Below, in pieces: positions 2,576 through 25,444 of a DNA stretch of 64,000 bases. Below the pieces are notes generated by a model that was not told the DNA's origin, ran no database searches, and saw nothing but the letters and a program-made list of their open reading frames with translations. The stretch comes from Actinomycetes bacterium. GTDB taxonomy: Bacteria; Actinomycetota; Acidimicrobiia; Acidimicrobiales; Ilumatobacteraceae. Position 1 is the stretch's first letter. Each line of letters starts with the position of its first letter. A program made the position numbers and the translations under genes. The stretch is from positions 682,001 to 746,000 of the forward strand of contig JAKOUY010000016.1 in assembly GCA_029782355.1 (NCBI GenBank). Reading direction: 5' to 3'.

Positions 2576-3994
2576 ATGCACGAGCACCCTGCGACGTTGT
2601 CCGAGCTGCGCCGCTCCGGGTGGACCTCGGTGCCGGTCAAGGAGGAGATCCGGCGCAACGCCGTGGCCCGGATCATGGCCGGCCGGCCGCTGTTCGACGG
2701 CGTGATCGGCTACGAGGACACGGTGATGCCGCAGCTGGAGAACGCCCTCCTGGCCGGGCACGACGTGATCTTCCTGGGCGAGCGGGGCCAGGCCAAGACC
2801 CGGATGATCCGCTCGCTCATCGGCCTGCTCGACGAGTGGATGCCCGTCGTCGCCGGCAGCGAGATCCACGACGACCCCTACCATCCGGTGTCCGCGCACG
2901 CCCGCCACCTGGTGGCCGATCAGGGCGACGACACCCCGATCGACTGGGTGCACCGCAGCCGGCGCTACGGCGAGAAGCTGGCGACGCCGGACACGTCCAT
3001 CGCCGACCTGATCGGCGAGGTCGACCCGATCAAGGTCGCCGAGGGCCGCTACCTGTCCGACGAGTTGACCCTGCACTACGGGTTGGTGCCGCGGACCAAC
3101 CGGGGGATCTTCGCCATCAACGAGATCCCCGACCTCAGCGAGCGGATCCAGGTCGGGCTGCTGAACGTGCTGGAGGAGCGCGACGTCCAGATCCGCGGCT
3201 ACCAGATCAGCCTGCCACTCGACCTGCTCCTCGTCGCCAGCGCCAACCCGGAGGACTACACCAATCGCGGCCGGATCATCACCCCGCTGAAGGACCGCTT
3301 CGGCAGCCAGATCCGCACCCATTACCCACTCGACGCCGACACCGAGATCGACATCATGCGGCAAGAGGCCCGGCCGCTGACGGTGGGCGAGGTCGGTGTC
3401 AACGTCCCCCACTACCTCGAGCGGGTCATCGCCACGTTCAGCCAGCTGGCCCGGGGCAGTTCGCAGGTCAACCAACGCAGCGGGGTCAGCGTGCGTCTCA
3501 GCGTCAGCAACGTCGAGGTCGTCGGGGCCAACGCCCTGCGCCGCGGCCTGCGCTCGGGTGAGCAGCGCGCCGTGGCCCGGGTGAGCGATCTGGAGGCGTT
3601 GCCGGCGGCCACCAGCGGCAAGATCGAGATCGAGTCGTTCGAGGAGGGTCGCGATGGCGAGATCCTCGAGCATCTGGTCAAGTCGGCCACGCTGACCGTG
3701 TTCCGCGAGGTTGCCGACCCGGTGCGGCTCACCGACGTGGTCACCGCGTTCGAGGCCGGGGCCAGCGCCCGAGCGGGCGAGGGGGTCGCCTCCGCCGATC
3801 TGGCCGCGGTGGCCAGCTCGATCCCGGCCCTGGCCGAGGCCGCCGACGCGCTGATCGCCGGTGACGGCTCGACCGGCACGCCCGGCCAGGCCGACATCGC
3901 CGCCGCCGTCGAGTTCCTGCTCGAAGGGCTGCATCTGTCGAAGCGGTTGAACAAGGACGCCGACACCTACCGGGCGAGGAAGTCGCCGCGCTGA
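2576..3994 (+). CDS. MoxR/magnesium-chelatase-type AAA+ ATPase
   Basis: This 472-residue AAA+ protein is of the chelatase I / MoxR type. The Walker A motif GERGQAKT is at 68-75, and a Walker B-like segment FAINEIPDLSERIQ lies near 178-191, followed by the arginine-rich sensor region around SANPEDYTNRGRI. Such ATPases work with a VWA-domain partner to insert metals or remodel protein complexes. The likely partner is the VWA gene starting near 5508; the pair matches the mycobacterial Rv0958/Rv0959 arrangement. Here two minus-strand genes sit between the partners. The ATG at 2576 was chosen over upstream codons because it begins the conserved region and lies 7 nt after a TAGGGT box. The physiological substrate is unknown. 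Confidence 0.82.
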   Translation: MHEHPATLSELRRSGWTSVPVKEEIRRNAVARIMAGRPLFDGVIGYEDTVMPQLENALLAGHDVIFLGERGQAKTRMIRSLIGLLDEWMPVVAGSEIHDDPYHPVSAHARHLVADQGDDTPIDWVHRSRRYGEKLATPDTSIADLIGEVDPIKVAEGRYLSDELTLHYGLVPRTNRGIFAINEIPDLSERIQVGLLNVLEERDVQIRGYQISLPLDLLLVASANPEDYTNRGRIITPLKDRFGSQIRTHYPLDADTEIDIMRQEARPLTVGEVGVNVPHYLERVIATFSQLARGSSQVNQRSGVSVRLSVSNVEVVGANALRRGLRSGEQRAVARVSDLEALPAATSGKIEIESFEEGRDGEILEHLVKSATLTVFREVADPVRLTDVVTAFEAGASARAGEGVASADLAAVASSIPALAEAADALIAGDGSTGTPGQADIAAAVEFLLEGLHLSKRLNKDADTYRARKSPR

Positions 3995-4913: not shown

Positions 4914-5465
4914 TCACAGGGAGAACGGTGCCCGGGTCCACAGCTCGGCGGTGTCGCCGTTGCCGATGTTCGCCGGCCGGCCGTTCAGCGCCACCACGCT
5001 GATGTGCCCGGGGAAGCCGCGCAACTCGATCTCGCCGTGGGGGACCGCCAGCACCCCGGCGGGGAGGTGGTCGATCTGCATGGCCGGCATGAGCACCTCA
5101 CCCGGACCGGCGAGGTCGCACAACCGCGAGGCCATGTTGACCGCCGAGCCGATGTAGTCGTCGCCCTCGAACAGCAGCGCATACCCGCTGGCGATGCCGG
5201 CGTGCAACGACAGGGGGGCGCACAGCGGTGCCGAGCGATGCCACAGCTCCATGACGAAGCTGATGGCGTTCTCGTGGTCGACGGCCACGACCATGCACCC
5301 GTCACCCAGCCACTTGGCGATGCGCACCCCGGTCTCGCTGGCCACCTCGCGCGTCAGGGTCCGGAAGGCACTGAGCAGTCGCCCGGCGGCGTCGTCGCCG
5401 AAGGCCGCGGTGTAGTTGGTGAACCCGGAGAGGTCGATGAAGACGAACGAGCGCGGCACTCTCAT
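4914..5465 (-). CDS. Class III adenylate/guanylate cyclase catalytic domain protein
   Basis: This 183-residue protein is a stand-alone class III nucleotidyl cyclase domain. The two metal-binding aspartates are present, D11 in FIDLSGFT and D55 in KWLGDG. The transition-state pair N110/R114 is in VNMASRL, and the purine-selecting Lys (K51) and Asp (D103) are consistent with adenylate cyclase, so cAMP is the likely product. There is no membrane segment or sensor domain. ATG 5465 has GGAGGT three bases upstream and a TAGCCT box 9 nt upstream. It is divergent from the VWA gene and precedes the GH1-like gene in what looks like a two-gene operon. Activity is likely because every key residue is kept. 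Confidence 0.8.
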   Translation of the reverse strand: MRVPRSFVFIDLSGFTNYTAAFGDDAAGRLLSAFRTLTREVASETGVRIAKWLGDGCMVVAVDHENAISFVMELWHRSAPLCAPLSLHAGIASGYALLFEGDDYIGSAVNMASRLCDLAGPGEVLMPAMQIDHLPAGVLAVPHGEIELRGFPGHISVVALNGRPANIGNGDTAELWTRAPFSL

Positions 5466-5474
5466 GACACCTCC

Positions 5475-5501
5475 AGGCTATGCCGGGGCGTTGGGTAGAT
5501 T
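5475..5501. promoter_or_regulatory. Divergent -10 boxes for cyclase and VWA genes
   Basis: Minus-strand TAGCCT (5480-5475) precedes the cyclase ATG by 9 nt. Plus-strand TAGATT (5496-5501) precedes ATC 5508 by 6 nt; its TAG is also the in-frame stop that bounds the VWA reading frame. The region carries both promoters within about 30 bp. Confidence 0.45.
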
Positions 5502-5507
5502 GCGGGC

Positions 5508-7451
5508 ATCCGCCGACTGTTCACCTACACGAAATGGGACGGCTCCCAGGCCGGGTTCGATCTCGACGCAGCGTCACTGTTCGACCACTTGACCGACGAG
5601 CTGCTGTACCACGGTGACCTCGACACCGCCCTGCGGCGGATGATGCAGCGCGGCCTCCGCACCCCAGCCGGCGGACGTCTCGAGGGGCTGGCGGACCTGC
5701 TGAAGCGGGTGCGGGCCAAGCGGGAGGAGATCCTCGAGCGCCACGACCTGGGCGTCTACGAGGAGATCGCCGACGCCCTCGACCAGATCGTGGCCACCGA
5801 GCGGGAGGCCCTCGACGAGACCGACCCGCGTGCCACCCAACTCGACCTGCTGCCCGACGACCTGGCCGGGCGGGTCGGGGAGCTGAGCCGCTACGACTTC
5901 GCCTCGCCGGACGCCGCAGCCGCCTTCGCCGAGCTGGTCGAGCAGCTGCGCGAGCAGCTGGTGCGCCAGGCGGCCGAGCAGATGTCGTCGGCGATGCAGG
6001 AGATGACCCCGGAGTCCATCGCCCGGATGACGGCGATGATGGCCGAGCTCAACGAGATGATCGCCCGGCGGGATCGGGGCGAGGACCCTCGCTTCGAGCG
6101 GTTCATGCACGAGTACGGCGACTTCTTCCCCGAACGACCGCAGAGCCTCGACGAGCTGCTCGAACAGCTGGCCCGGCGGATGGCCGCGGCGCAGGCGCTG
6201 CTCGACTCGATGACGCCCGAACAGCGCGCCCAGCTTCGCGAGCTGTCCGACCAGCTGCTCGGCGACCTCGACCTGCGCTGGCAGATGGACCAGCTCGGAC
6301 GATCGATGCAGTCGATGATGCCGCAGCTGTTCGGGTCCGGCTACGACTTCCGCGGCGAGCAGCCGCTGGGGATGGACGGGGCGATGCAGGCGATGCGCGA
6401 CCTCGGCGAACTCGACCGCCTCGAGCATCTCCTGCGCACCGCCACCTCCCCGGGGCAGCTCAGCGAGGCCGACCTCGACCGCGTCGGTGACCTGCTCGGC
6501 GAGGACGCCGCCCGCTCGATGGAGCAGCTCGCCGAGCTGAGCCGGATGCTGGAGGATGCCGGGCTGGCCCGCCGCGACGGCACCCGGCTGCAGCTCACCC
6601 CGAAGGGCCTGCGCCAGATCGGCAACGCCTCGTTGCGTGACCTGTTCCGCAAGCTGAGCGCCGACAAGGCCGGTCAGCACGAGCTCGACCGGATCGGGCA
6701 CGGCCACGAGCGCAGCTTCCAGACCAAGCCGTACGAGTTCGGCGACCCGTTCCACCTCGACCTGCAGCGGACGATCCGCAACGCCCTGGCCAGAGGCGGA
6801 CCCGGCACCCCGATCCGGCTGCATCCGGACGACTTCGAGGTCGAGCAGACCGAGCAGCTGACCCGCTCGGCCACGGTGGTGATGCTCGACCTGTCCCAGA
6901 GCATGCCGTTGCGCGACAACTTCCTGCCGGCCAAGAAGGTGGCCATGGCGCTGCACGCCCTGATCACCTCGCAGTTCCCCCGCGACTACCTCGGGCTGAT
7001 CGGCTTCGCCTCGCTGGCCCGGCCGATCACCGCCGCCATGCTGCCCGAGGTCACCTGGGATGCGCAGTACGGCACGAACATGCAGCACGGATTCTCCCTG
7101 GCTCGCCAGATGCTGGCCGGCCAGACGGGGACCAAGCAGGTGATCATGATCACCGATGGCGAGCCGACCGCTCACCTCGACGCCGACGGTCGATCGGTCT
7201 TCCACTACCCGCCGGTCACCGAGACGATCGAGGCGACGATGCGTGAGGTGCTCCGCTGCACGCGCGCCGGCATCCGCATCAACAGCTTCGTGCTCGACGT
7301 CAACGACTACCTGCGCGCCTTCATCGAGCGGATGGCGGCGATCAATCGCGGCCGGGTGTTCTACACCACGCCCGACACGCTGGGCGACTACGTCCTGGTC
7401 GACTTCCTCGAGCATCGCCAGCGCGCCCAGCGCTCCCGTCGAACCGGGTGA
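5508..7451 (+). CDS. VWA-domain protein, partner of the MoxR-type ATPase; probable ATC start
   Basis: The ~647-residue protein ends in a von Willebrand factor A domain. The MIDAS motif DLSQS lies near residue 461, with a downstream TDGEPT. The central part is charged and helical. It corresponds to the mycobacterial Rv0959 family, which is found with a chelatase-type ATPase (here 2576-3994). Conserved coding sequence (RRLFTYTKWDGSQAGFDLD) lies upstream of the first in-frame ATG at 5589, and the frame is closed by TAG at 5496. No ATG, GTG or TTG is in frame between. ATC 5508 sits exactly 6 nt after a TAGATT box, as in the leaderless genes nearby, so ATC initiation is the best reading; ATT 5499 is the alternative. 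Confidence 0.78.
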   Translation: MRRLFTYTKWDGSQAGFDLDAASLFDHLTDELLYHGDLDTALRRMMQRGLRTPAGGRLEGLADLLKRVRAKREEILERHDLGVYEEIADALDQIVATEREALDETDPRATQLDLLPDDLAGRVGELSRYDFASPDAAAAFAELVEQLREQLVRQAAEQMSSAMQEMTPESIARMTAMMAELNEMIARRDRGEDPRFERFMHEYGDFFPERPQSLDELLEQLARRMAAAQALLDSMTPEQRAQLRELSDQLLGDLDLRWQMDQLGRSMQSMMPQLFGSGYDFRGEQPLGMDGAMQAMRDLGELDRLEHLLRTATSPGQLSEADLDRVGDLLGEDAARSMEQLAELSRMLEDAGLARRDGTRLQLTPKGLRQIGNASLRDLFRKLSADKAGQHELDRIGHGHERSFQTKPYEFGDPFHLDLQRTIRNALARGGPGTPIRLHPDDFEVEQTEQLTRSATVVMLDLSQSMPLRDNFLPAKKVAMALHALITSQFPRDYLGLIGFASLARPITAAMLPEVTWDAQYGTNMQHGFSLARQMLAGQTGTKQVIMITDGEPTAHLDADGRSVFHYPPVTETIEATMREVLRCTRAGIRINSFVLDVNDYLRAFIERMAAINRGRVFYTTPDTLGDYVLVDFLEHRQRAQRSRRTG

Positions 7452-24427: not shown

Positions 24428-25444
24428 ATCATCGTCGACAGCAGCTCGCCCGGCGCGTCCGCCACCGATCAGCCGGCGCCACCGGTCACCGGCCGGTCGG
24501 TGTGGATCCGCGGTGCCAGCGCGGCGCTCGACGTCCGCCTCGGCCGCCTGTTCGAGGAGGCCGGCTGGCGGGTCCAGGAGCAACCGGCCCACGCCACCAC
24601 CATCGTCTGGGCCGCGGCCACCGATCCGGAACGGATCGTTGCCCGGCGGGCCCGTCCGGCCGCCGAACTGGCCGAGGCGCTGGTCGCCGCCCAGGGGGCG
24701 GCCAACCTGGTGCTCGTCTCCTCGGCGATGGTCTACGGAGCATGGGCCAACAACCCGGTGCCGCTCACCGAGGACGCCGCGCTGCGCCCGACCGTCGACT
24801 TCGCCTACGCCCGCCGTCTGGGCGCGCTGGAGCAGACCGCCGACGACTGGCGGGTCGCCGTGCCCGGCCGGCGGGTGACCGTGCTCCGCCCGGTGGTGAC
24901 GATGGCCGAGGACGCCAGCAGCCCGCTGGCCATGGCCCTCGCCGCCGGGATGGGCCAGCGGCGCGGCGAGGACGATCCGCCGGCACAGTTCGTCCATCTC
25001 GACGATCTCGCCGCGGCCGTGGTGCTGGCCGTCTCCCGACGGCTGGACGGCGTCTACAACGTGGCGCCCGACGGGTGGGTGGCCGGCGAGCGGGTCCGGG
25101 CCCTGGCCGGCGGGGTGCCGCGCATCAAGCTGCCGGCCCGCGTCCGGGAGGTGCTCGACGACGTCCGCTGGCGGTTGACCCGCGGACCGATCCCACCCGG
25201 GATGTCGGCCTACACCCGCTGGCCGTGGCTGGTGGCCAACGACCGGCTGAAGGCTGCCGGGTGGCGGCCAACGGTGACCAACGAGCAGGCCTACGTCGAG
25301 GGGACCGAGCAACGATGGTGGACGATGGTCTCGCCCAAGCGTCGCCAGGAGCTGGCGCTCGGGGGGCTCGGGGTCGGGATCGGGGCACTGCTGGGCGCGA
25401 TCGTCGTCGCCGTTCGCCGGGCCCGCCGGCGGCGCACCGGCTGA
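24428..25444 (+). CDS. NAD(P)-dependent epimerase/dehydratase-like (extended SDR) protein; possible ATC start
   Basis: The protein (338 residues from ATC 24428, or 314 from GTG 24500) resembles extended SDR epimerases. An N-terminal strand-turn VWIRGASAALDVRLGRLFEE holds a degenerate dinucleotide-binding loop, and LVLVSSAMVYGAW matches the S-S-x-x-x-Y-G active-site region, although the usual YxxxK is altered to YARRL. A hydrophobic helix near the C-terminus (LGVGIGALLGAIVVAV) ending in RRARRRR suggests a membrane anchor, unusual for the family. The start is uncertain: no canonical codon lies between the TAA at 24416 and GTG 24500, and the intervening codons are strongly G/C at third positions. 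Substrate unknown. Confidence 0.62.
   Translation: MIVDSSSPGASATDQPAPPVTGRSVWIRGASAALDVRLGRLFEEAGWRVQEQPAHATTIVWAAATDPERIVARRARPAAELAEALVAAQGAANLVLVSSAMVYGAWANNPVPLTEDAALRPTVDFAYARRLGALEQTADDWRVAVPGRRVTVLRPVVTMAEDASSPLAMALAAGMGQRRGEDDPPAQFVHLDDLAAAVVLAVSRRLDGVYNVAPDGWVAGERVRALAGGVPRIKLPARVREVLDDVRWRLTRGPIPPGMSAYTRWPWLVANDRLKAAGWRPTVTNEQAYVEGTEQRWWTMVSPKRRQELALGGLGVGIGALLGAIVVAVRRARRRRTG

Follow-up and report, generated by a model that had tools for sequence, protein, structure and literature searches.

The VWA gene and its start region

The window, the whole 64,000-nt stretch of DNA analysed here, carries a gene for a VWA-domain protein that follows a MoxR/ChlI-like ATPase gene and stands back to back with a cyclase-like gene. 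The features around its start are as follows.

2576..3994, plus strand: MoxR/ChlI-like AAA ATPase gene, upstream of the VWA gene; also leaderless in layout (TAGGGT, 7 nt, ATG 2576)
4914..5465, minus strand: adenylate/guanylate cyclase-like gene, divergent; its TAGCCT lies at 5480-5475 on the minus strand
5496..5501, plus strand: −10 element TAGATT of a predicted leaderless promoter, beginning with the in-frame stop codon TAG
5502..5507, plus strand: spacer GCGGGC, 6 nt, between the −10 element and the start codon; 123 of the 136 leaderless orthologues share this length
5508..5510, plus strand: ATC in the ATG/GTG start slot; predicted mRNA 5' end and start codon, from the orthologue alignment and the genome scan
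5508..7451, plus strand: VWA-domain protein gene, 647 codons plus the stop codon at 7449-7451; PF13519 VWA_2
5517..5519, plus strand: CTG in frame, 9 nt (three codons) past the predicted mRNA 5' end; a competing non-canonical start
5589..5591, plus strand: TTG, the first in-frame canonical start; its use removes 27 codons, including the conserved N-terminus

The VWA protein matched Pfam PF13519 (VWA_2) with 28.3 bits, just above the curated cut-off of 27, and carries the motifs DLSQS, GTN and TDGEP, which we take to be metal-site (MIDAS-like) motifs. A sequence search for a solved relative returned none at E 0.01. The frame has no internal stop, and the gene is single-copy in its genome. It was matched in 59 of 61 genomes and in 202 of 221 family genomes, its own genome being counted in both figures. 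In some family genomes (G030, G210, G217, G169, G174 and others) the match crosses one in-frame stop; in the G030 locus (L014) the frame ends about 30 codons short of most relatives.

Between the MoxR-like gene, whose domain scan used a longer ORF starting at 2519, and the VWA gene lie the cyclase-like gene and another ORF. Within 5475-5501, the VWA gene (TAGATT, plus strand) and the divergent cyclase gene (TAGCCT, minus strand) have −10-like elements that stand back to back, 15 bp apart.

The initial annotation had proposed that the VWA gene starts at ATC directly after a leaderless −10 box, and the sequence details behind that proposal were borne out. TAG 5496-5498 lies in the VWA frame and closes it, forming the first half of the TAGATT box at 5496-5501. 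ATC 5508-5510 follows exactly 6 nt past the box, a spacing shared with the orthologues and with the leaderless genes of the same genome, so that, at this distance from the −10 element, the mRNA is predicted to begin with the start codon. No ATG, GTG or TTG stands in frame between TAG 5496 and TTG 5589; the further rare potential starts in this frame are ATT 5499, within the −10 box, and CTG 5517. There is no Shine-Dalgarno sequence before ATC 5508, the letters directly 5' of it being TAGATTGCGGGC (read by eye). The stretch between ATC and TTG 5589, which a start at 5589 would drop, contains seven alignment columns (Y, W, D, G, Q, G, F) identical in all 50 proteins compared and four more identical in 48 or 49 of them, as the initial annotation had anticipated when it spoke of lost conserved residues.

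The start codon in orthologous genes

To compare the start codon among relatives, we collected 148 whole-genome orthologue start regions from the family and the order, our own included (L001-L030, L077-L097 and L099-L195). They were taken from the listed family matches that had an N-terminus, and the aligned start codon was defined as the codon four places before a conserved aromatic residue, which is ATC in the window. The N-terminal motif made 145 of them readable; L095, L149 and L185 were unreadable and were dropped.

This alignment, which had been suggested as a check on the ATC start, gave ATG (125) or GTG (13) at the codon matching ATC in 138 of the 145 readable orthologues. Six others have CCC, GAT, GGT, ACT, GTC or CCG at that codon and start elsewhere. 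Scored by promoter layout, 136 of the 145 have a TANNNT element 5-8 nt 5' of an ATG (122) or GTG (14), with a spacing of 6 nt in 123, 7 nt in 11 and 8 nt in 2. Seven have ATG or GTG without the element, and two, the window and L027, lack a canonical start within 54 nt. We rejected L027 as a startless case, since by eye a GTG lies 7 nt past a TAGCCT farther upstream. None of the other 144 readable orthologues has an ATC-like start codon; the window alone has ATC. The locus L009, from another genus, has an identical TAGATT followed after 6 nt by ATG. These counts indicate that the leaderless layout is conserved and that ATC occupies the position of the start codon; judged from the aligned sequences, the arrangement of −10 element and start at the VWA gene is more than chance.

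A named genome collection gave 46 more VWA loci, of which 17 were unreadable and were dropped. Among the 29 readable ones, 13 have TANNNT before ATG or GTG, 15 have a canonical start without the element and one has no canonical start. In the Acidimicrobiia MAG nzgw84 (L036:2850-3060), ATT occupies the VWA start slot, 5 nt past the MoxR stop codon. From its sequence, L036 is an independent AUH (AUU, AUC or AUA) case in the VWA family, yet it is not leaderless by the TANNNT criterion; the ATT start beside the MoxR stop codon may reflect translational coupling.

Scan of the genome for non-canonical leaderless starts

The genome that contains the window comprises 3.79 Mb in 40 contigs, with 98% completeness. 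We scanned 1.46 Mb of it blind, using a codon score trained on the genome itself, which yielded 982 gene-like ORFs. Candidates had to pass a filter on coding gain and on the distance to the next canonical start, and to lack a credible upstream start. Among these ORFs, 107 ATG and 89 GTG codons follow a TANNNT element at a distance of 6-7 nt. TTG was never found in this slot at 6-7 nt among the 982 ORFs and occurred twice at 8 nt; its absence agrees with the mycobacterial reporter result (PMC4633059).

Ten non-canonical slot codons passed the filter. Among those without an upstream canonical start, the highest coding gains belonged to ATC 5508 (10.8) and to an ATT at C7:249391 (7.1), for which the next canonical start lies 27 and 15 codons on, respectively. 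The top gain overall, 22.0, was that of a CGC on C19, above both AUH cases; reading of its ORF showed four canonical starts upstream, and it was rejected, as was a GCG on C7 with canonical starts upstream. TGC, CAC, GGC, two GGG and an ATC at C7:346463 were also rejected, an ATG 5-10 codons on being probably the true start in each. A CTG on C7 with a gain of 13.7 failed the filter on account of upstream canonical starts. In all, three CTG codons stand in the leaderless slot and none is supported, owing to upstream canonical starts, an ATG directly after, or a negative coding gain. ATC 728801 of the window's contig (window position 46801, minus strand) is directly followed by ATG and was set aside as an ordinary start. 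No non-canonical slot codon passed the filter on C1 (419 kb). A 240-kb stretch of contig C35, 20 kb of which is shared with the main scan, has ATG 15 times and GTG 8 times in the slot and gave no AUH case, its 220 kb of new sequence included; its sole high-gain row, a GGC with a gain of 32.7, has canonical starts upstream and was rejected. The roughly 1.68 Mb covered, 44% of the genome, thus contain two strong AUH cases, and contig C7 carries both. The second of them and a further candidate from the window are as follows.

C7:249391 (L208:9391), minus strand: OmpR-type response regulator gene P0002, complete; TAGAGT, 7 nt, ATT
24428..25444, plus strand: epimerase-like gene P0003; TAACGT, 6 nt, ATC 24428; no canonical start before GTG 24500

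The receiver domain (Response_reg) of the response regulator begins at residue 3, and initiation at the next canonical codon, an ATG, would cost the protein its first 15 residues, among them the acidic ones at 7-11. In 21 of 29 homologous loci, the codon in exact register with the ATT is ATG, GTG or TTG. The remaining eight have a non-start codon at this place, and their start is elsewhere or unclear. The homologues are at most 50% identical, and at that distance the loci may be paralogues. The gene is divergent from a tRNA-Gly gene. ATC 24428 is a weak third case, because GTG 24500 is a possible start that keeps the conserved part of the protein and because the N-terminus is variable in homologues, where it differs in length; its coding gain, 0.7, is below the filter.

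infC and the initiator tRNA

We also examined infC, a gene with known AUU/AUC/AUA starts. Of 27 infC loci from the family and the order, three (L397, L407 and L413) were unreadable. In all 24 readable genomes the start slot, judged from sequence, holds ATA (19) or ATC (5), and an in-frame stop lies within 66 nt upstream of it in 15 of them. The infC gene of our genome (L098, contig C35) has ATA after AGGGAG. The clade therefore appears to start translation at AUA and AUC on leadered mRNA, which suggests that these codons can work with a leader and says nothing of leaderless use.

Initiator tRNAs have a distinctive anticodon stem. The string GGGCTCATAACCC was absent from the assembly even with one mismatch or with a looser pattern. 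Of the 43 tRNA matches in the genome, two are CAT tRNAs, and neither has an initiator-type anticodon stem. The exact string is absent in 8 of 25 relatives too, and the 43 matches include no Thr(TGT) tRNA; an assembly gap is therefore the simpler reading. We rejected an altered initiator tRNA as an argument, since the missing gene, probably lost in a gap, speaks neither for nor against it.

Weighing the explanations for the ATC codon

We infer that the VWA gene is leaderless, that ATC has replaced its former ATG (or GTG) start codon in this lineage, and that it is probably initiated, weakly, at a 5'-terminal AUC. The codons of the orthologues, the lack of a canonical start before 5589, the second case with ATT, the AUH starts of infC, the ATT of L036 and the intact frame all favour this reading. 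Against it stand the reporter rule for mycobacteria (PMC4633059) and the apparent need of E. coli leaderless mRNAs for AUG (PMC5622118), the lack of an AUH codon among the other 144 orthologues, the divergence of the VWA protein and the count of two strong cases only.

That divergence bears on the possibility that the ATC is natural but marks a recent start-loss allele, with proper translation already lost and the gene decaying towards a pseudogene. The VWA protein of our genome deviates at 9 of the 161 columns that are invariant in the other 49 proteins, the most among the 50. Among the 11 genomes in which both VWA and IF3 proteins were comparable, its mean identity (0.614) is the lowest, while its IF3, the one control gene, is mid-range (0.738). 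On these figures the VWA protein evolves unusually fast in this genome, which keeps a decaying allele under consideration; the fast divergence fits a lower expression as well as a relaxed constraint or need. The rule from PMC4633059 that ATC fails on leaderless mRNA also points this way. Nevertheless, the frame runs for 647 codons without a stop, the other 152 of the 161 columns are kept and most of the nine changes are conservative (by eye), the gene is present in nearly all of the genomes compared, and the response regulator with ATT is another gene with a start of this kind. We consider a start-loss allele unlikely. Translation from another codon, by leadered or internal initiation, is improbable as well. 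CTG 5517, ATT 5499 and TTG 5589 are all in frame, and CTG 5517 would retain all conserved residues; however, leaderless CTG failed in M. smegmatis according to PMC4633059, although a 9-nt leader would precede CTG 5517, and the leaderless-slot CTG codons of this genome found no support. ATT 5499 sits within the −10 box, and TTG 5589, besides cutting conserved residues, has no Shine-Dalgarno-like sequence in front of it (by eye). Finally, ATC at 5508 rests on one assembly, and its third base could be a G that was miscalled during sequencing or assembly. This is very unlikely: an independent second AUH case was found blind in the same slot, and an extra hit of this kind among about 200 leaderless starts would, on our own rough estimate, need an error rate of about 1 in 1000, far above the usual consensus quality. 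The uninterrupted VWA frame also argues against an error.

A possible mode of initiation and its consequences

If the VWA gene is leaderless with an ATC start, transcription would begin at or beside A5508, 6 nt past TAGATT, as the conserved layout suggests. The ribosome would then use the ordinary initiator tRNA to start at this 5'-terminal AUC, the first two bases paired and the third mismatched, and the output would probably be below that of AUG. Initiation at a 5' end may tolerate AUC if IF3 proofreading weighs less there. Alternatively, expression might be tied to the IF3 level, as it is for infC, whose expression is controlled by IF3. Excess IF3 inhibits leaderless mRNAs and also initiation at non-canonical codons (PMC2268962), so that a high sensitivity of the AUC start to IF3 is equally conceivable.

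A wider reading is tentative: the ribosomes of this lineage might truly initiate at 5'-terminal AUC and AUU, perhaps on 1% of leaderless messages (VWA, the response regulator and possibly the gene at 24428). If this is true, the rule that leaderless genes use ATG and GTG only would not be general, and such AUC/AUU genes could be set to a low, IF3-sensitive expression. That rule, reported in PMC4633059, comes from reporters, and natural genes with ATC or ATT offer a ready test of its generality, as well as a test of how the initiator tRNA and IF3 act without a leader. Gene callers may clip or miss such genes; calling with ATG, GTG and TTG loses the first 27 codons of the VWA gene.

Comparison with known systems

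MoxR AAA ATPases and VWA proteins form a known family of gene pairs. The VWA gene resembles them in its VWA_2 domain and in the MoxR/ChlI-like ATPase gene nearby, and in L036 the two genes are adjacent. In the window, unlike in such pairs, the VWA gene is separated by two ORFs and has its own predicted leaderless promoter.

Like infC and its AUU, AUC or AUA codons, the VWA gene has an AUH codon in the start slot, backed by its homologues. infC has a leader and usually a Shine-Dalgarno-like motif, whereas the VWA gene has no such motif, the position of its −10 element suggests that it lacks a leader, and its relatives use ATG or GTG. It also resembles the start switches from ATG to AUU described in PMC5622118, in that an ancestral AUG appears to have been replaced by an AUH codon. 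Here, by contrast, the change would be to AUC at a leaderless site; AUC occurs nowhere in that text, which cites work suggesting a requirement for AUG in E. coli leaderless mRNAs.

The closest comparison is with mycobacteria, for which leaderless initiation is one of the main routes of translation. According to Shell et al. (2015; PMC4633059), a 5'-terminal ATG or GTG is required in reporters of mycobacterial leaderless genes and other codons fail, CTG at leaderless positions failing in M. smegmatis and ATC serving as a negative control; ATT was enriched at a leadered position with a Shine-Dalgarno sequence. Our search of open-licence PubMed Central found no paper on leaderless initiation at an AUC start codon, or at AUN codons, and listed two that pair leaderless genes with an AUU start codon. 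The VWA gene shares with the mycobacterial leaderless genes a start at the predicted mRNA 5' end and the lack of a Shine-Dalgarno sequence, and its genome uses ATG and GTG, not TTG, in this position. It differs from the genes described in PMC4633059 in its codon, which is ATC at 5508-5510 (or ATT, in the response regulator) in place of ATG or GTG. If translated, a leaderless gene with an ATC start is, on this comparison of sequences, a new variant of leaderless initiation.
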